Positions 1-13,783 of a DNA stretch of 40,854 nucleotides are shown piece after piece. The stretch is from positions 106,201 through 147,054 of the forward strand of contig JAICBP010000083.1 in the NCBI GenBank assembly GCA_021766785.1, read 5' to 3'. Under the pieces are notes generated by a model. The model made no database searches, was not told the DNA's origin, and saw only the letters and a program-made list of their open reading frames with translations. The first letter of the stretch is position 1, and every line of letters begins with the position of its first letter. A program made the translations under genes and the position numbers. The stretch is from Sulfurimonas sp. endosymbiont of Alviniconcha boucheti (GTDB taxonomy: Bacteria; Campylobacterota; Campylobacteria; Campylobacterales; Sulfurimonadaceae).

Positions 1-993
1 GATGTTTATATGGCAGGGACTATGTATGCTGAAGAAGCTACAGATAGCTCTGCTACATTTACTGCACATAAAAATGGTAAAGGCGTTGGTGGCACTGGTG
101 GTGGTTTACTTAACTATCTCTCTTATGGTGATTTCCGTCTTGATGATACTGGTTTTTATAAATCTGCACTTCTTTTCCCCTCTGGTGTTGTTTTAAATGG
201 TGATTTAAGTAAAGTCTATCCATTTGACCCTGAAAAAGTACAAGAGGATGTTACTCACGCTTGGTATGAGGCAGAAGGTCTGCAGCACCCTTATGAAGGA
301 ACTACAATTCCTAAATATACAGGTTTGCAGAAGAAGTCTGATGGTATGGCATATCTTAAAACAGATGAGAAATACTCTTGGATAAAATCTCCAATCTATG
401 ACGATAAAAGAATGGAAGTTGGACCTCTTGCTCGTATGGTCGTTGGTGTTGCTGCTGGGCATGAGCTAATAACGAAGTATGTAACAAACTTTTTAAAACG
501 TGGAAACTTGCCAACAACAGTTCTTTTTTCAACTATTGGTCGTACTGCTGCTCGTGCTATTGAGACTGAGCTTATGGCTGATGAAATGATGAAGTGGGTT
601 GATGAACTAGCAGCAAATGTTGCAGCTGGTGATGATAGTACATGGAGTGATTTTGACTTTGAAAAAGTAAGCAAAAAGACAAAAGGTGCAGGTCTTGCTG
701 AAGCTCCACGTGGTGGTTTAGGTCATTGGGTAAAAATTGAAAATGGGAAAATTTCTAACTATCAAGCAGTTGTACCATCTACATGGAATGCAGCGCCTAG
801 AGATTATAAAGGACGTTTAGGGGCTTATGAAGCAGCTCTTATTGGTACGAAAGTAGCAGATCCTGAACAACCATTAGAGATTATTCGTACAATACATAGT
901 TTTGATCCTTGTATTGCATGTGCTGTACATGTAGTGGATACAAAAGGTAAAGAGCTTGGTGTCTATAAAGTAGATACTCAATGTAACATCTAA
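1..993 (+). CDS. hydB: [NiFe]-hydrogenase large subunit, 5' end cut off
   Basis: This is the C-terminal 330 residues of the catalytic subunit of a membrane-bound uptake [NiFe]-hydrogenase, which oxidises H2 at the Ni-Fe centre. The frame is open to base 1, so the true start lies outside the window; the ATG at 10 is internal. Near the C-terminus is the L2 signature DPCIACAVH, whose two cysteines bind the Ni-Fe site. Maturation proteases of the HyaD family cut just after the His of this motif, so about 20 residues (VVDTKG to QCNI) should be removed. hydC follows after 11 bases with a strong AAAGGAG ribosome site, giving the hydABC order of Wolinella and Helicobacter; the small subunit gene presumably lies just upstream. 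The family assignment is secure. Group 1b is an inference from the layout. Confidence 0.97.
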   Translation, partial: DVYMAGTMYAEEATDSSATFTAHKNGKGVGGTGGGLLNYLSYGDFRLDDTGFYKSALLFPSGVVLNGDLSKVYPFDPEKVQEDVTHAWYEAEGLQHPYEGTTIPKYTGLQKKSDGMAYLKTDEKYSWIKSPIYDDKRMEVGPLARMVVGVAAGHELITKYVTNFLKRGNLPTTVLFSTIGRTAARAIETELMADEMMKWVDELAANVAAGDDSTWSDFDFEKVSKKTKGAGLAEAPRGGLGHWVKIENGKISNYQAVVPSTWNAAPRDYKGRLGAYEAALIGTKVADPEQPLEIIRTIHSFDPCIACAVHVVDTKGKELGVYKVDTQCNI

Positions 994-6574: not shown

Positions 6575-7108
6575 TTATCTTTTAGGATCTCTAAACTCTT
6601 CTATTATATCAGACAATTTAATAATAGAAGAGTTTTTTTTAACAGTAATACTCTCTTTTTTTAAAATATTAAGCAGAGTCTCTATGTAAACATTAAATTT
6701 TTCATTTATAACATCACTTAAACCAATTTTTATAGTAATGCTCTTTGGAATTATGCCTAAAACACTTGACTTTGGAATCTCTTTTCCCATGAGCTCTAGT
6801 ATATCGAAGCATTGAAGTACACCTATTTCATGTGCCGCACTAGATTTGAGTCCATAACCAGTAAGTTCATGCGAGGGTATATGGTAAATACTTCCTGGCT
6901 CATCTTCTATCTCTATAGCATCTAAAATAATAATATGCTTGTATTGCATAAATATATTAAGAAGATTTATTCCCTCTACACCACCATTAATTATATCTAT
7001 TTGTGGTGTGAAAGTATAATTTATTTCAAGATATTTTGTTGCATAAATAGCAACTCCATCATCTTTTTCTAAAATATTTCCAACTCCAAGTATCGCTAAT
7101 TCTTTCAT
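6575..7108 (-). CDS. hydD: Hydrogenase maturation protease (HyaD/HydD family)
   Basis: This protease removes the short C-terminal tail of the HydB precursor after nickel insertion. The 177-residue protein has the family pattern GVGNILEKDDGVAIY, with D17 at the first nickel-recognition position, D63 in IIILDAI at the second and H93 in SSAAHEIGVLQ at the third, so the metal-sensing triad looks intact. IIPKSITIKIGLS matches the typical C-terminal half. It is the second gene of a minus-strand pair: its ATG overlaps the stop of the upstream transposase-like gene by 4 nt (7105-7108). It converges with the inactive-looking paralogue that ends at 6502. The symbol follows Campylobacterota usage; hyaD is equivalent. 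Confidence 0.92.
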   Translation of the reverse strand: MKELAILGVGNILEKDDGVAIYATKYLEINYTFTPQIDIINGGVEGINLLNIFMQYKHIIILDAIEIEDEPGSIYHIPSHELTGYGLKSSAAHEIGVLQCFDILELMGKEIPKSSVLGIIPKSITIKIGLSDVINEKFNVYIETLLNILKKESITVKKNSSIIKLSDIIEEFRDPKR

Positions 7109-7788
7109 TTATCATCCTTCAGATAGTGTTTTAGAAGAAGTTCTATCGCTTCCTCTTTTGTATGGTTATATTTAAATTCACACTCTTTTAAAAAATAGAT
7201 AAAAGAACTATTTTTTATTCCTTTATATTTTAAAATACTTCTTTCAAAATATTCCCAAAAAGTGACTATATTGTTAAAATGTTTTTCAACTTTTATAATT
7301 CTTGTCTTACGTTTAAAACTATTAAATTCATTCATAAAACCTCCAGCTACATCATCTTCTAAAAATTGCTTTTTATACTGCTGTAGTGATGGCATTAAAA
7401 CTGTATAAATATGTTGAGAATAATCAAAAGTGAGAAAGTTATGTGCATCAAAAATAGCTTCTTTCTTGTGCTTTTTGGAATGCTCTAAATAGTAATACTC
7501 TTCATATTCACACTGTTGCATTCTCACATATTCATACTCATTTTCACAAATTTTTGCACAAAGTATTCTAAAATGATGAAAATATTTTTGTACAGAACTG
7601 TAAGAGAGTTTTGTACGTTGTGAAAGACTCCATGCACTCTCATTATCAACAAATACATAAATTAACAACATAAGTTTGTTGATTTTTGCTAAGGATATTT
7701 TTTTTAAGCATTTAGAACATTTAACTCTTCCATCAGAAAGAGCATAGGCAAAACTATGACAAAATAGACACTCATCCATCCATAACAT
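7105..7788 (-). CDS. IS1595-type transposase-derived protein with zinc ribbon, catalytic residues lost
   Basis: This 227-residue protein looks like a full-length relative of small IS1595-family transposases. It has an N-terminal zinc ribbon (C7, C10, C24, C27), a helix-turn-helix region (about 50-75, SLSQRTKLSYSSVQKYF), and a C-terminal block (about 172-220: VTFWEYFERSILKYKGI, then FLKECEFKYNHT) very like the transposase pattern ESFWxxxKxRLxKFxG, then LKECEFRFNHR. The catalytic residues are gone: the first DE motif reads YEEYYY, the second Asp block (HSDGW in relatives) is absent, and the Glu of IESFW is Val (NNIVTFW). No flanking element is apparent. The reading frame is intact, has a ribosome site (AAAGG, 8-9 bases upstream) and is fused by a 4-nt overlap to the hydrogenase protease gene. 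DNA binding is plausible; regulation of the hyp genes is inference. Confidence 0.78.
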   Translation of the reverse strand: MLWMDECLFCHSFAYALSDGRVKCSKCLKKISLAKINKLMLLIYVFVDNESAWSLSQRTKLSYSSVQKYFHHFRILCAKICENEYEYVRMQQCEYEEYYYLEHSKKHKKEAIFDAHNFLTFDYSQHIYTVLMPSLQQYKKQFLEDDVAGGFMNEFNSFKRKTRIIKVEKHFNNIVTFWEYFERSILKYKGIKNSSFIYFLKECEFKYNHTKEEAIELLLKHYLKDDK

Positions 7789-7915
7789 ATTTACACCTTT
7801 GTATGATTAGTCCAAAATTCATATAAGAAAATCCTTCTTTTATCTCTCTTTTACATAATATAATATAAAATCTTTTAAAACTGAATAAACATTCACTTAT
7901 CTAAAGGTTTTTTTA
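7789..7915. promoter_or_regulatory. Divergent promoter region of the hydrogenase maturation genes
   Basis: This 127-base AT-rich stretch separates the minus-strand transposase-like/protease pair from the plus-strand permease-hyp operon. A TATAAT sequence at 7859-7864 is a candidate -10 box for the plus-strand operon. A clear -35 box is not visible, as is common in this phylum. CTAAAGG, about 7-10 bases before the ATG at 7916, is a ribosome site. If the transposase-like protein is a regulator, this is the most likely place for its operator. Confidence 0.5.
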
Positions 7916-8557
7916 ATGGAAATGGGTTATATAATTATATTTTGGTATGGTATTCTTCATGCATTTGGACCAGATCATTTAACTGCAATTACAGATTTCT
8001 CACTTGGTAAATCTATGAAAAAAACGATAATGATCACTTTTGCATTTGCTTTTGGACATGGTATCACACTTTTTACTTTTGCAAAGATTTTAGAGCATTA
8101 TAGTTTATCTGAAGATATAACTGCTTATGGAGATATTATCTCTTCTAGTGTTATAATAACTATGGGAGTGTATCTACTCTATATGGTTTTTGTAGATAAG
8201 ATCCATCTCAACAAACACTTTCATGAAGGTCAAGAACATATCCATATCTATTTTGGTAAAGAACACTCCCATAATGATAATATAGCGTCCACCTCAGCAT
8301 GGACTATTGGTGCATTTATGGGTATTGGAGGTGTACGTGGTATGCTTATCACTTTAGGAATGCTACAAGGAAATAGCATTGACTTTAGCATGGTGTTAGT
8401 ATTTATTGCTGGTGTTAGTTTAGTATTTGTTAGTTTTGGTGGGATTATTTTATATATCAACAGAGAGTTATTAACAAACAAAACAAATGTTAGACATGTT
8501 TTTACAACTGCTGGAGTAATATCTATAGTAGTTGGGACGAATATGATTTTTACATAA
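7916..8557 (+). CDS. Nickel permease of the NiCoT/NicO type
   Basis: This 213-residue membrane protein has about six hydrophobic segments and probably imports Ni2+ for the hydrogenase. Its first helix carries HAFGPDH (H15, D20, H21), the HX4DH metal-selectivity signature of nickel/cobalt permeases. A second helix has FGHGITL, also typical. A hydrophilic loop (about 97-121) is rich in His and acidic residues (HLNKHFHEGQEHIHIY, then KEHSHND) and may collect metal. It is the first gene of the hyp operon and lies 28 bases before hypB, which itself has a His-rich nickel-binding tail. The context points to nickel rather than cobalt; the exact subfamily (NicO, HupE-like or UreH-like) is uncertain. 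Confidence 0.85.
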   Translation: MEMGYIIIFWYGILHAFGPDHLTAITDFSLGKSMKKTIMITFAFAFGHGITLFTFAKILEHYSLSEDITAYGDIISSSVIITMGVYLLYMVFVDKIHLNKHFHEGQEHIHIYFGKEHSHNDNIASTSAWTIGAFMGIGGVRGMLITLGMLQGNSIDFSMVLVFIAGVSLVFVSFGGIILYINRELLTNKTNVRHVFTTAGVISIVVGTNMIFT

Positions 8558-8585: not shown

Positions 8586-9386
8586 ATGTGTATAGATTGC
8601 GGATGTAGTATAACAGGAACAACTTTAGGAGATGGTGGAGGGGAGCATCATCATGATCACGGTCATAAACATAGCCACTCTCATGAGCATCAAGCAGCAC
8701 ATGAAACACTTCACCATAATCCTCAACTAAATGATAGTAAAACAATTAGTGTCATCACAAAAATATTAGATAAAAATAATCATGAAGCAGAACATAACCG
8801 TGCTCATTTCGATAAAAATGGAGTACTTAGTATTAATCTTATGAGTAGTCCCGGAAGTGGAAAAACAACACTTCTTGAGCATTTTGCAGATACAGTTGAT
8901 TTTAAATTTGGTGTTATTGAGGGTGATTTAGAAACTTCTCGCGATGCTGATAGAATTAAGACTAAAGGTATTCCAGCATATCAAGTACAAACTGGTTCAG
9001 CATGTCATCTTGATGCTTTTATGGTGCATAAAGGTTTACACAATATGCCACTAACAGAGATTGATGTTTGTTTTATCGAAAATGTAGGAAATTTAGTATG
9101 TCCAGCCTCTTATGATGTTGGAAGTCACTTAAATATTGTGCTTGTCTCTGTTCCAGAAGGAAGCGATAAGATTGAGAAGTATCCTGTTATGTTCCGTCAA
9201 GCAGATTTAATTCTCATTACAAAGATAGATTTGATAGAACATTTTGATTATGATATAGAACATGAGAAAAAAGAGGCTAGAAAAATAAAACCTAGTGTAG
9301 ATATACTAGAAGTAAATATAAAAGATAAAACGTCTATCCAAAATGTTATTAATTGGATAGAGTTTAAAAGAAAGATGAGAGGGTAG
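8586..9386 (+). CDS. hypB: Hydrogenase nickel incorporation GTPase HypB
   Basis: HypB is a dimeric SIMIBI-class GTPase that, with HypA, delivers nickel to the hydrogenase large subunit. The 266-residue protein starts MCIDCGC, matching the high-affinity CxxCGC nickel site of E. coli HypB. It continues with a His-rich stretch (residues 21-44, 13 histidines) of the nickel-storage kind. The P-loop SSPGSGKTT is at about 87-95, followed by EGDLETSRDADRI with the metal- and nucleotide-linked region and QTGSACHLDA with the conserved CH pair of the G-domain metal site. ENVGNLVCPASYD and ITKIDL are further GTPase motifs. AAAGGAG precedes the start. Confidence 0.97.
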   Translation: MCIDCGCSITGTTLGDGGGEHHHDHGHKHSHSHEHQAAHETLHHNPQLNDSKTISVITKILDKNNHEAEHNRAHFDKNGVLSINLMSSPGSGKTTLLEHFADTVDFKFGVIEGDLETSRDADRIKTKGIPAYQVQTGSACHLDAFMVHKGLHNMPLTEIDVCFIENVGNLVCPASYDVGSHLNIVLVSVPEGSDKIEKYPVMFRQADLILITKIDLIEHFDYDIEHEKKEARKIKPSVDILEVNIKDKTSIQNVINWIEFKRKMRG

Positions 9387-9387
9387 T

Positions 9388-9678
9388 ATGTGCTTATCAA
9401 TTCCAAGTAAAGTGGTTAAGATAGATAAAGAGAGAAATGTTGCAATAGTTGATACTATGGGTGTGCAGAGGGAAGCTGGCTTAGAACTTATGGAAGAAGA
9501 TGATGTAAAAATTGGAGATTTTGTTCTTTTACATATCGGCTTTATAATGAATAAAATCGATGAAAAGGATGCTCTAGAATCACTAAAAGTTTATAATGAA
9601 ATTTTAGAAAAACTTGATGAAGAGGATAGGCAGCAGATGGTCATAGATGATGATAACTGCGAAAATAGAGGTGCTTAA
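9388..9678 (+). CDS. hypC: Hydrogenase maturation chaperone HypC
   Basis: HypC pairs with HypD to build the Fe(CN)2CO unit and then carries it to the large subunit. The 96-residue protein begins MCLSIPSKVV; Cys2, exposed after Met removal, is the essential iron-binding residue. VLLHIGFIMNKID includes the conserved His of the family. It is slightly longer than the usual 75-90 residues because of an acidic C-terminal tail (EEDRQQMVIDDDN). It starts one base after the hypB stop and ends one base before the hypD start, so the three are almost certainly co-translated. Confidence 0.96.
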   Translation: MCLSIPSKVVKIDKERNVAIVDTMGVQREAGLELMEEDDVKIGDFVLLHIGFIMNKIDEKDALESLKVYNEILEKLDEEDRQQMVIDDDNCENRGA

Positions 9679-9679
9679 T

Positions 9680-10828
9680 ATGAAAGAGTTACAACTAAAG
9701 GATCTCTATGATGGTTTTCGCGATCCAGAAGTTATAAAAGGATTTGCAAAGCTTATAGAAGAGGAAGCAAAAAAACTCTCTCATCCAATAAATATAATGG
9801 AAGTGTGCGGTGGACATACTCATTCCATAATGAAATTTGGTCTCCCTCAACTTCTTCCTGAAAATATTAACTTTATCCATGGTCCAGGTTGCCCAGTCTG
9901 TATCATGCCAAAAGAGCGAATAGATCATGCTTATATCTTAGCTGATCAAGAGGATACTATACTAGTTACTCTAGGTGATATGATAAAGGTGCCTGGTAGC
10001 AGAGGAAGTCTTCAAGATATCAGAGCAAAGGGTGCAGATGTGCGTTTTATCTACTCTCCACTTGATATATTAAAAATTGCAGAAGAGTATCCTGATAAAA
10101 AGATTATCTTTTTTGCCATAGGATTTGAGACAACCACTCCAATGACAACTGCACTTATTGATATAGTACTAAAACGCCAGATTAAAAATATCTTTTTTCA
10201 TATAAATCATGTTACAGTTCCAGAGGTAATGGTAGAGCTTATAGACTCTCGTGATGAACATATAGATAGTTATAACAATCGTATAGATGCTTTTTTAGGA
10301 CCAAGTCATGTGAGTGTTATAACAGGAAGCAAAATATATGAAAAGTTTCCTAAAGAGCATAATCGTCCAGTTGTTGTATCAGGGTTTGAACCTGTAGATG
10401 TTATGGAAGCTATTTTGATGATTGTTAAACAGTTTAACGAAGGAAGATGTGAATTGGAGATAGAGTATAAACGTCTAGTCACTTATGGTGGAAATCTAAA
10501 GGCACAAGCTCTCATTGAAAATTATTTTGAAAAAGCTTCACTTTTTAAATGGCGTGGGCTTGGGAATATACCAGATAGTGGGTACAAACTAAGACCTCAG
10601 TTTGCAGATATTGATGCAGAGAAAATATATGCTGATATCTTACCAAATGAGGAGATAGAAGATCATAAACTCTGTATCTGTGGCGATATACTTCGAGGTA
10701 TGGCTAAACCAGATGAGTGTACTATATTTGGTACAGCTTGTAAACCACAGAGCCCATTAGGAAGTTGTATGGTAAGTAGTGAAGGTGCTTGTGCAGCATA
10801 TTATAAATATGGAAATTTACTAAAATGA
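9680..10828 (+). CDS. hypD: Hydrogenase iron-centre assembly protein HypD
   Basis: HypD is a [4Fe-4S] scaffold on which, with HypC, the iron receives its CN and CO ligands. The 382-residue protein has CGGHTHSIMKFG near residue 43, GPGCPVCIMP near 70, and FAIGFETTTPMT near 150, all classic HypD signatures. The C-terminal cysteine cluster (CICGDILRG, ECTIFGTAC, GSCMVSSEGAC) supplies the cluster ligands. I chose the ATG at 9680, one base after hypC, because GAGG lies 8 bases upstream and the homologous N-terminus (LQLKDLYDGFRDP) follows. An in-frame ATG at 9647 inside hypC would add 11 unsupported residues. It overlaps hypE by 4 nt. Confidence 0.97.
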   Translation: MKELQLKDLYDGFRDPEVIKGFAKLIEEEAKKLSHPINIMEVCGGHTHSIMKFGLPQLLPENINFIHGPGCPVCIMPKERIDHAYILADQEDTILVTLGDMIKVPGSRGSLQDIRAKGADVRFIYSPLDILKIAEEYPDKKIIFFAIGFETTTPMTTALIDIVLKRQIKNIFFHINHVTVPEVMVELIDSRDEHIDSYNNRIDAFLGPSHVSVITGSKIYEKFPKEHNRPVVVSGFEPVDVMEAILMIVKQFNEGRCELEIEYKRLVTYGGNLKAQALIENYFEKASLFKWRGLGNIPDSGYKLRPQFADIDAEKIYADILPNEEIEDHKLCICGDILRGMAKPDECTIFGTACKPQSPLGSCMVSSEGACAAYYKYGNLLK

Positions 10829-11823
10829 ATAAACAGATAACCCTTGCCATGGGAAATGGTGGTGAAGAGAATAATGAGCTTATAAATAAGATTTTTTATA
10901 AAGCTTTTAAAAATGATATTTTAGAAAAGTCTGAAGATGCAGCAGTTATACATGATGGAGCATTGGCGTTTAGCACAGATAGCTTTACCGTGAGTCCTCT
11001 CTTTTTTCCTGGTGGAGACATAGGAAAACTTGCTATTTGTGGAACTTGTAACGACCTTGCTATGATGGGTGCAAAGCCAAAATATCTTACATGTAGTTTT
11101 ATTATCGAAGAGGGTTTTTCAATACATGAACTTGAAAAAATTGTTCGTAGTATGAAAAAAGAGTTAGCAAAAAATGGTGCAGTAATTGTAGGTGGTGACA
11201 CAAAAGTTGTCCCTAATGGATGTGTCGATAAAATATTTATAAATACTACAGGTATTGGAGAGATTCAAAAAAAAGGTATTAGTTCAAATACCATCTCCTC
11301 TGATGATGTGATACTTGTAAGTCGTGATTTAGGTCGGCATGGTGCAACTATTTTTGCCGCTCGTGAGGGAATAGAACTCTCTAGCAAGCTAGAGAGTGAT
11401 TGTGCATCACTTACTCATCATGTTCAAGCACTTATAGATGCAGGTGTAGAGATAACAGCTCTTAGAGATGCAACTCGTGGTGGTGTAAGTGCAGTACTTA
11501 ATGAGTGGGCAAAACAATCAAATATCTGTATAGAAGTACAAGAAGATAGTATCCCAGTATCGCAAGAGGTATATGGAGTCTGTGAATTACTAGGGTTTGA
11601 GGCGGTAAACTTAGCAAATGAAGGAACTTTTGTATTGGCTATCAAAAAAAGTTTTCTAAAAAAAGCTTTTGAAGTATTACATAGTTTTGAGAATTCTGAA
11701 AATGCTGTAAAAATAGCTGATGTTTCCTATGAGTATGTAGGTAAAGTTGTACTTCTTAGTTCCTATGGAACAAAAAGATTTTTAGATACACCAACTGGTG
11801 AACTTCTTCCTAGAATCTGCTAA
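10825..11823 (+). CDS. hypE: Hydrogenase maturation protein HypE
   Basis: HypE accepts a carbamoyl group from HypF on its C-terminal cysteine and dehydrates it with ATP to a thiocyanate, which is passed to HypCD. The 332-residue protein belongs to the PurM/SelD-like ATP-binding family: GDIGKLAICGTCNDLAMMG (about 67-85) and VGGDTKVVP (about 122-130) are the ATP/Mg elements, and ALRDATRGG (about 213) is typical. It ends exactly in PRIC, the conserved C-terminus whose Cys carries the ligand. Overlaps: 4 nt with hypD upstream, and the stop directly abuts the hypX ATG. A 10-base-pair palindrome lies inside the gene at 11376-11397. Confidence 0.97.
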   Translation: MNKQITLAMGNGGEENNELINKIFYKAFKNDILEKSEDAAVIHDGALAFSTDSFTVSPLFFPGGDIGKLAICGTCNDLAMMGAKPKYLTCSFIIEEGFSIHELEKIVRSMKKELAKNGAVIVGGDTKVVPNGCVDKIFINTTGIGEIQKKGISSNTISSDDVILVSRDLGRHGATIFAAREGIELSSKLESDCASLTHHVQALIDAGVEITALRDATRGGVSAVLNEWAKQSNICIEVQEDSIPVSQEVYGVCELLGFEAVNLANEGTFVLAIKKSFLKKAFEVLHSFENSENAVKIADVSYEYVGKVVLLSSYGTKRFLDTPTGELLPRIC

Positions 11824-13449
11824 ATGAAAATTCTTCTTCTTGTAAGCTCATTTAATTCTTTAACACAAGCTGTTTATACAAAGCTCAAAGATAGGGGAGA
11901 GATTGTAGCAGTTGCATTTGCAATACATGAAAAACAGATGCAAGAGGAGGTAGAAGCTTTCAATCCAGAACTTATTTTAGCACCATATTTAAAAGTTTTT
12001 ATTCCTGAAACAATCTATAAAGTTTATCCGACTTATATATTTCATCCTGGTCCTTTAGGTGATAGAGGTTCCTCTTCGTTAGAGTATGCACTTTTGAGTG
12101 ATACAAAAGAGTGGGGTGTGGTAATTTTACGAGCTAATGAGCTTTATGATGGTGGTAACATTGTAGCTCAAAAGAGTTTAAGTGTACGGAATACTTATAA
12201 AGCATCACTTTATCGGCAAGAGATCGCTAAACATTTCTTAATGGCATTGGATAGTTTTTTTCAAAAGCCTTTGGATTTGCCACAAATACTAAATCCTCTT
12301 CATAAACAGTTTAATCAGGAGACGCGCAAGATTGATTGGGAGAATGATCATACTGAAAAGATAATAGCTAAAATTCACCTCTCAGATAGTTTTCCAGGTG
12401 TATTAGACACTATTATGGGTGTTAAGTGCTATCTCTTTGGTGCTCATAAAGAGGAGAGATTAAGAGGTGGTATCAAAGACGTTTTAGCCAAACGTGATGG
12501 AGCGATCTGTATTGGCACAAAAGATGGGGCACTTTGGATAAGTCATCTTAAAGAGCCTCATAAATTTAAACTACCAGCTACTTATGTTCTAAAAGAGAGA
12601 ATAGTAGGAGTAAAAGAGCAGAGGTTGCCCCTACTATTTGATAAGAGCTATGAGACATTTTATGAGATGAGTGTAGAGAAGTGTGATAATGTCGCTTATC
12701 TCTCTTTTAATTTTCACAATGGTGCTATGAGTTCCAAACAGTGTATTCGTCTTAAATATGCATTTGAGTATCTTAAAGAAGAATACGAAGTTATAGTGCT
12801 TGTTGGTGGAATGGACTTTTTTAGTAACGGTATCCACCTTAATATCTTAGAAGACTCAAAAAAACAGGGTGAAGATGGATGGAGTAATATTAATGCTATG
12901 AATGATCTTATAAAGTCTATACTTGAAGCTAATGAAGTTGTAACCATTGCATCACTTACGAGAAATGCAGGTGCAGGTGGTGTTTTTTTAGCACTAGCTT
13001 GTGACTATATCATAGCAAAAGAGAGTGTAGTGTTAAATCCTCATTATAAGACCTTAGGTTTAAGTGGAAGTGAATATCATACTTATACATTGCCAAAAAG
13101 AGTGGGGGAAGAGATCTCAAATAAGATTCTTAATAAAGCATTACCTATCTCTGTAGAGTATGCAAAAAATGTAGGTATGATAGATGAGGTTTTTGCTGAA
13201 AATAACTATTATGAGAAGTTACATAACTTTTCATCTTCATGCTATGATGAAGATTTTATCTCGAAAAAACAAGATAAAATAGAAAAAGAACGAGAAAATA
13301 TGGAGCGGTGTAAACAAACAGAACTTAAAAAGATGTATGCAGAGTTTTGGGATGTGTCAAGTAATTTTCATACACTCAGACACAATTTTGTCTATAAAGT
13401 ATGTCCAACCAAGACACCAAAAAGATTACAAGGGGATAGCTATGCATGA
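11824..13449 (+). CDS. hypX: HypX/HoxX, CO-ligand synthesis for hydrogenase under oxic conditions
   Basis: HypX makes the CO ligand of the active-site iron from a formyl group, by way of formyl-CoA, which allows hydrogenase assembly in air. The 541-residue protein has the expected two halves. The N-terminal formyltransferase-like half (about 1-250) has FHPGPLGDRGSSSLEYAL at 73-90, the HypX version of the formyl-THF domain motif. The C-terminal enoyl-CoA hydratase/isomerase-like half (about 290-480) has GGMDFFSNGIHLN, RNAGAGGVFLALACDYI and NPHYKTLGLSGSEY. The length equals the usual approximately 540 residues. It starts directly at the hypE stop and overlaps hypA by 8 nt. It suggests the hydrogenase is made under microaerobic or oxic conditions. 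Confidence 0.94.
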   Translation: MKILLLVSSFNSLTQAVYTKLKDRGEIVAVAFAIHEKQMQEEVEAFNPELILAPYLKVFIPETIYKVYPTYIFHPGPLGDRGSSSLEYALLSDTKEWGVVILRANELYDGGNIVAQKSLSVRNTYKASLYRQEIAKHFLMALDSFFQKPLDLPQILNPLHKQFNQETRKIDWENDHTEKIIAKIHLSDSFPGVLDTIMGVKCYLFGAHKEERLRGGIKDVLAKRDGAICIGTKDGALWISHLKEPHKFKLPATYVLKERIVGVKEQRLPLLFDKSYETFYEMSVEKCDNVAYLSFNFHNGAMSSKQCIRLKYAFEYLKEEYEVIVLVGGMDFFSNGIHLNILEDSKKQGEDGWSNINAMNDLIKSILEANEVVTIASLTRNAGAGGVFLALACDYIIAKESVVLNPHYKTLGLSGSEYHTYTLPKRVGEEISNKILNKALPISVEYAKNVGMIDEVFAENNYYEKLHNFSSSCYDEDFISKKQDKIEKERENMERCKQTELKKMYAEFWDVSSNFHTLRHNFVYKVCPTKTPKRLQGDSYA

Positions 13450-13783
13450 ATATAGTGTGGTGCAAGCTCTATTAGAGCAGATAGAGGATGTAGCAAAAGA
13501 GAATGAAGCCACAAAAGTGACAAAAGTAGTAGTAAAGATAGGTGTAATGAGTGGAATTGAAGCTCATCTTCTCGAAATAGCATTTAATACTTTTAAAGAA
13601 AAAACTATCTGCCATAATGCTAGTTTTGTAATGAATATTCAACCTCTTTGCATAGAGTGTCAAGAGTGTAAGTCTGTTAGTGTATTAGAGAAGATTCACT
13701 ACTGTTGCCAAAAATGTAAATCTACAAATATAAAAGTAAATGATGGAGAAGATATGTTTCTCATGAGTCTAGAGATGGAGTAA
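13442..13783 (+). CDS. hypA: Hydrogenase nickel incorporation protein HypA
   Basis: HypA hands nickel to the hydrogenase precursor together with HypB. The 113-residue protein begins MHEYSVVQALL; the N-terminal Met-His-Glu forms the nickel site. The zinc domain has two cysteine pairs (CIECQEC near residue 71 and CCQKC near 89). DGEDMFLMSLEME is the usual C-terminal strand. The start at 13442, overlapping the hypX stop by 8 nt, is fixed by the invariant MHE; an in-frame upstream ATG at 13337 would bury the nickel-binding N-terminus and is rejected. Confidence 0.96.
   Translation: MHEYSVVQALLEQIEDVAKENEATKVTKVVVKIGVMSGIEAHLLEIAFNTFKEKTICHNASFVMNIQPLCIECQECKSVSVLEKIHYCCQKCKSTNIKVNDGEDMFLMSLEME

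Follow-up and report, generated by a model that had tools for sequence, protein, structure and literature searches.

A catalytically inactivated IS1595-type transposase as a putative regulator of hydrogenase and nickel genes in Campylobacterota

The genome of a Sulfurimonas endosymbiont of Alviniconcha boucheti is predicted to encode a domesticated zinc-ribbon DDE transposase of the IS1595 type, which no longer cuts DNA and now appears to act as a sequence-specific transcription factor of a hydrogenase and nickel regulon. We give this reading a probability of about 0.78. The gene lies in a 40,854-nucleotide stretch of that genome (the window, meaning the whole of the DNA analysed), next to the hydrogenase maturation protease gene hydD and divergent from an operon for a nickel transporter and the Hyp maturation proteins (Table 1). 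Its descent, loss of catalytic residues, selection, synteny and co-occurrence with a promoter element, E1, were computed. Campylobacterota are among the main oxidisers of hydrogen at vents and in sediments, and to our knowledge the regulation of their hydrogenases is poorly understood; the family of this gene supplies a candidate hydrogenase regulator together with a concrete DNA site. If the reading is correct, a bacterial DDE transposase has become a transcription factor and an ancestral transposon end may have been kept as its operator, a case parallel to, and distinct from, that of the TldR proteins. No description of the family was found in the published open-licence papers searched.

Table 1. 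Features around the focal gene, in window coordinates
Feature	Position	Strand	Evidence
hydB (hydrogenase large subunit), C-terminal part	10..993	+	
hydD, hydrogenase maturation protease; 4-nt overlap with focal gene	6575..7108	-	
Focal gene: IS1595-type protein of 227 aa, catalytically dead; putative transcription factor for hydrogenase/nickel genes	7105..7788	-	
Remnant RNase-H-like core, residues 94-218; second-Asp segment deleted, catalytic acids lost, C-terminal FW/YKG/LKE block kept	7135..7509	-	
Helical DNA-binding (HTH) region, residues 33-88	7525..7692	-	Model; IS1595 HTH by alignment
Zinc ribbon, residues 7-27; C7/C10/C24/C27 invariant	7708..7770	-	Family alignment
E1 element ATTAGTCCAAAATTCATATAAGAAA, TIR-like, presumed operator of focal protein	7806..7830	+	
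E2 palindrome TGAATAAACATTCA, presumed operator of TetR regulator	7882..7895	.	
NicO-like nickel transporter, first gene of divergent operon	7916..8557	+	Weak PF03824 match (E 0.0005, below cut-off); synteny
hypB	8586..9386	+	Translation; BLAST homologues
hypC	9388..9678	+	Translation; homologues
hypD	9647..10828	+	HypD profile PF01924 match at G000:C81:115931-117013
hypE	10825..11823	+	Translation; homologues
hypX-like (name presumed from sequence knowledge)	11824..13449	+	Translation; homologues
hypA	13337..13783	+	Translation; homologues

Domain structure and loss of catalytic residues

The first-pass annotation had described an open frame that overlaps hydD by four nucleotides and encodes a transposase-like protein with a retained zinc ribbon and C-terminal block and with lost catalytic acids, and all of this held up on closer analysis. 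The frame (7105-7788, reverse strand) is intact at 227 aa, and its stop codon lies over the start of hydD (7105-7108). The zinc ribbon and the C-terminal block, FW...YKG...F..LKE.EFK.N, are invariant or nearly so across the family alignment. Aligned to real IS1595 transposases, the window protein has EE in place of DE, a deletion of the YTD block that carries the second Asp, and Val for the Glu of HINGIE. None of 68 family members keeps all three acids of the D-D-E triad: 65 have lost the third Glu and 30 have Glu or Asn for the first Asp, yet the LKE.E block and the tryptophan of the FW motif are retained across the 68. Judged from its sequence, the focal protein is no longer capable of cutting DNA. 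Its HTH region comprises predicted helices at residues 33-47, 52-59 and 63-88, modelled with pLDDT above 85.

Relationship to IS1595 transposases

Descent from the IS1595 superfamily is indicated by profile matches within the family together with the invariant LKE.E block that it has in common with the transposases. The window protein alone matched no IS1595 or other transposase profile. Among 27 family members, NCBIfam transpos_IS1595 (NF033547) matched 25, with a best E value of 2e-7 that is below the curated cut-off, and the Pfam DDE_Tnp_IS1595 profile (PF12762) and the IS1595 zinc-ribbon profile matched 13 and 11, respectively, also under their curated cut-offs. Such sub-cut-off scores are what is expected of a diverged branch. 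An AlphaFold2 model of the focal protein has a mean pLDDT of 82.6 and is weaker at residues 141-170. A Foldseek search of the PDB with this model returned nothing at E<=0.001; in a second look (VIA), the Hermes transposase and retroviral integrases came out on top with Z of only 3.8-5.6, and nearly all rows were RNase-H-fold transposases or retroviral integrases at modest Z. The structure comparison is consistent with a reduced RNase-H fold in the modelled protein, and is not proof of it.

In a maximum-likelihood tree, the 68 sampled Campylobacterota proteins form one clade (support 100/99) apart from 45 transposase rows, the outgroup consisting of IS1595 relatives only (L073-L110 and L219-L255). 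The dN/dS values of the family, a check proposed with the first-pass annotation, are low and point to purifying selection: they are mostly 0.08-0.16, with one of ten pairs at 0.285, and are comparable to or somewhat higher than those of the neighbouring NicO transporter gene (0.06-0.14). Because the family is a single clade with low dN/dS and a wide distribution, we consider the gene to be old and kept by selection, most simply after one domestication.

A long-branched protein without clear catalytic residues is drawn beside the family clade, with unsure placement. It is encoded in a Candidatus Peregrinibacteria sequence (L092:5851-6762) and is IS1595-like, with a zinc ribbon and catalytic residues that are apparently lost; no hydrogenase context was seen around it.

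Genomic context and distribution

Hydrogenase-maturation, hydrogenase or nickel-transport genes adjoin the focal gene in 40 of 42 named loci, and the two exceptions are truncated contigs. Ordinary IS1595 genes recovered by the same search, which serve as controls, show no such placement. The gene is usually divergent from a nickel transporter (NicO-like, HupE, CbiM or NiCoT) followed by hypBCDE(X)A, or directly from hypB. Orthologues thus stand beside hyp or hydrogenase genes across the Campylobacterota, as the earlier annotation had proposed to check. Its proposed tie to hydD applies in the window's own clade and fails elsewhere, where the general partner is the nickel-transporter/hypBCDEA operon.

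In the endosymbiont genome the focal gene occurs in single copy, and PF12762 has no match there. Of 99 relatives, 37 have a homologue if two weak or fragmentary matches are counted, and a genome nearly always has just one. Homologues occur in many genera across the class, some of the weak matches being ordinary IS1595 copies; named carriers include Sulfurimonas, Sulfuricurvum, Sulfurovum, Nitratifractor and Nitratiruptor, as well as Sulfurospirillum, Arcobacter, Aliarcobacter and Poseidonibacter. Whole-locus scans for E1 (L031-L072) found no partner element downstream of the gene; real IS1595s in the same set have both ends, often with 8-bp duplications. The focal gene appears not to be a fresh insertion. 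We also weighed the possibility that it is an ordinary IS1595 remnant in decay that came to lie beside hydrogenase genes by chance. Such a remnant would have the same IS1595 descent, and a few family members do have a late or internal stop, but such decay is incompatible with the purifying selection on the family and with its conserved synteny. An ancient single clade that keeps its synteny over many genera, its low dN/dS and its nearly constant single copy, and zinc-ribbon and C-terminal residues that stayed invariant long after catalysis was lost make this explanation scarcely credible.

Among relatives at least about 90% complete, hypD is present in 29 of 30 carriers; in the remaining carrier (G015), hypB lies beside the focal gene on a short contig. 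In the same set, 26 genomes have hypD and no homologue of the focal gene. The hyp genes therefore occur with or without the focal gene, a pattern that fits a regulator and not a maturation enzyme. These 26 genomes also bear on a further alternative, in which the protein does not bind DNA and is an accessory of hydrogenase assembly, for example a zinc- or nickel-handling maturation helper cotranslated with hydD. The four-nucleotide overlap in the window's clade, the Cys4 ribbon and the almost constant proximity to maturation genes would fit such a role. We consider it very improbable, given also that the DNA-binding region of the transposase is kept, that the gene is usually divergent from the maturation operon instead of within it, and that a promoter element goes together with its presence.

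Promoter element E1

The divergent intergenic regions of the family loci have in common a 25-bp element, E1, with the consensus TTTAGTcCtAAAAaTAtATAAGAAA, which was derived from 60 non-identical loci. Scored by leave-one-out with similar sites also removed, E1 lies above the threshold, the 99% level of shuffled sequence, in 51 of the 60. A good match is missing in the other nine intergenic regions, in some since the chosen start codon cuts the site off, and several family loci have no E1 near the gene (e.g. L031, L038, L043, L046 and L058). At the hyp loci of non-carrier relatives E1 was found in 0/20, all scoring under 12 bits.

Scanned with patterns only, the endosymbiont genome has E1 with at most one mismatch only at the hyp promoter, at the hydA promoter and at one site next to masked sequence. 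The hydA copy (G000:C81:104057-104079) lies ~10 kb from the hyp promoter and just outside the window, in a promoter that has its own E1 and E2 (G000:C81:104057-104156). At two mismatches the loose pattern was no commoner than a control, and one such E1-like site, scoring 18 bits, falls within coding sequence. E1 also precedes hydA in G011, G097, G099, G193, G237 and G289, and in reversed orientation in G067; about half of the carrier loci have hydA without it. Four Aliarcobacter-type genomes carry E1 92-96 nt before a CbiM nickel operon that includes a periplasmic protein, which we take to be DUF4198-like. In G237 the focal gene has moved off the hyp promoter and this promoter still has a 33-bit E1, which fits a trans-acting factor. 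The earlier proposal that the protein regulates the adjacent divergent promoter region (7789-7915) gains support from, and is taken further by, an element that tracks the gene and neither NikR nor the TetR regulator described below, and that recurs at hydA and nickel-transport promoters.

Two opposed E1 elements were observed at L034:3623-3689, between hypB and an operon composed of CbiM-NikN-NikQ, the focal gene and hydD. This arrangement suggests control of both operons.

Promoter element E2 and other regulators

A second element, E2 (TGAAT-N4-ATTCA), lies nearer to the start codon than E1. An initial suspicion that the focal protein acts at E2 was rejected, as the palindrome occurs without the focal gene (L152) and tracks a TetR regulator, the gene for which lies just outside the window (G000:C81:101292-101882; L218:793-1386). 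Counting as TetR the regulator found next to hupSL-like genes, E2 is present at the hydA promoter in 15/15 genomes with TetR (the endosymbiont excluded) versus 0/13 loci from TetR-less genomes. Because of this co-occurrence E2 is most likely the TetR operator, and by the same logic E1 is assigned to the focal gene. NikR, also considered as the binder of E1, was ruled out since it is missing from 14 of 17 carriers; E1 is thus no NikR site. Scanning the intergenic region for promoters gave no useful information.

The TetR gene is followed by genes for a small and a large subunit of a cytoplasmic hydrogenase-like protein (L218:793-3548; G000:C81:101292-104047). This large subunit ends at CSVCTTH and has no C-terminal extension; the large subunit of sensor-type hydrogenases likewise has none.

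The assignment of E1 to the focal protein competes with one in which the focal protein is a regulator and E1 is bound by a different factor, for example an activator that escaped notice, inherited along with the hyp region in carriers. E1 lies in a short shared promoter and its binding by the focal protein is presumed, and a non-carrier (G042, L285) has a 17-bit E1-like site at hydA, at the same distance and with key positions changed; either loss of the gene, with this site left behind, or an assembly gap could account for it. The absence of E1 from every non-carrier hyp locus, its presence at the separate hydA and nickel-operon promoters, the rarity of NikR among carriers and the tracking of E2 by TetR make a different binder improbable.

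In Sulfurospirillum multivorans, no hydrogenase regulators were noted besides NikR, and a gene for a TetR-like repressor lies upstream of hupSL (PMC5357620). Its likely counterpart in the endosymbiont genome is the TetR gene described above, and the most likely binding site of its product is the E2 found in the same promoters; both protein and site differ from the focal protein and E1. Transcripts of the S. multivorans hydrogenase (MBH) were reported to be constitutive (PMC5357620), which counts against the reading of a regulated hydrogenase.

Proposed mode of action

For the focal protein as a transcription factor, we infer binding to E1, activation and the sensing of a signal. In the divergent promoter, the zinc ribbon and HTH region would most likely make the contact with E1, and the bound protein could control both the nickel-transporter-hypBCDEA operon and its own gene; through further copies of E1, control may extend to hydA and, in some Aliarcobacter, to a nickel-transport operon. 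The reduced core may serve in dimerisation or in contact with RNA polymerase, and the signal sensed could be nickel, hydrogen or redox. TetR would act as a repressor at E2.

E1 precedes the start codon by about 95-110 nt, and E2 follows it at a distance of 66-77 nt (87-88 nt at hydA). If E2 overlaps the transcription start, as repressor sites do, the promoter is downstream of E1, an arrangement that points to activation. The focal protein is probably an activator that works from a site upstream of the promoter, and repression is the less likely mode. Autorepression is plausible, as E1 is close to the focal gene's own start and many transposases act as repressors of their own gene; we nevertheless regard a repressor at E1 as rather unlikely, since at hyp and hydA both the presumed promoter and the TetR site are well downstream of the element.

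Origin of E1

In the nearest live zinc-ribbon IS1595s, which come from Pacearchaeota and Woesearchaeota, the ends resemble TTTAGTGCGG..N..CTAATCACC when read away from the gene. E1 opens with TTTAGTSC and runs to TAAG; its register and orientation are those of these ends, and its spacing from the gene is similar. Compared with the terminal repeats of four zinc-ribbon IS1595 ends, E1 gave shuffle p values of 0.003-0.007; the elements are few and related, and because the four ends are related to each other the match amounts to one suggestive observation and not four. The resemblance is thus tentative, and E1 probably goes back to a terminal inverted repeat that bounded the insertion sequence from which the gene arose. 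Other candidate sources were rejected: the ends of Campylobacterota IS1595 elements without a zinc ribbon (GGCTCAAGATAAGTTAA) do not match E1, and neither do IS1016-type ends (GGGGCTGTCCTAGATAAC). The ends of a Chlorobiales element (L076) showed no match to E1.

A fuller scenario can be proposed, to which we give slightly less than even odds. A DDE transposase would have been domesticated once, early in the Campylobacterota, together with one terminal inverted repeat that became the operator E1 and spread to hydA and nickel-transport promoters, so that the recognition of a terminal repeat by a transposase forms the core of the regulon in genomes that mostly have no NikR.

Comparison with known systems

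Among IS1595-family transposases (NF033547; PF12762/PF12760), the focal family is most usefully compared with the zinc-ribbon subgroup found on Pacearchaeota and Woesearchaeota contigs (L073, L074, L077 and L079). As in that subgroup, the proteins have a zinc ribbon, an HTH, apparent remnants of an RNase-H fold and a C-terminal FW...G...F..YLKE.EF/W.FN block, and the focal promoter element is similar to the subgroup's terminal inverted repeats. Unlike IS1595 transposases, they have lost the catalytic acids and the second-Asp segment, and their genes are nearly always single-copy and fixed beside hydrogenase or nickel genes, with no paired terminal repeats seen in the E1 scans.

TldR proteins are described in PMC13418256 (citing Wiegand 2024) as nuclease-dead, TnpB-derived, RNA-guided transcription factors; on that account, reuse of a transposon protein as a regulator is already known. 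Like TldR, the focal protein would be an inactivated transposon-encoded protein that was co-opted to regulate transcription and became associated with new genes. Unlike TldR, it descends from an IS1595-type DDE transposase and not from TnpB, and its recognition of DNA is presumably by protein instead of RNA-guided. What is new here is the DDE transposase, the possible use of a fossil end sequence as an operator, and the hydrogenase/nickel regulon. The focal protein resembles NikR in that it would control nickel transport and hydrogenase genes, and differs from it in being an unrelated protein.

Another IS1595-like gene with catalytic residues that are seemingly lost was observed in Solidesulfovibrio magneticus (L108:5887-6747). 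It directly precedes a gene with a Tat-signal start like that of a formate dehydrogenase, and is possibly an independent domestication.
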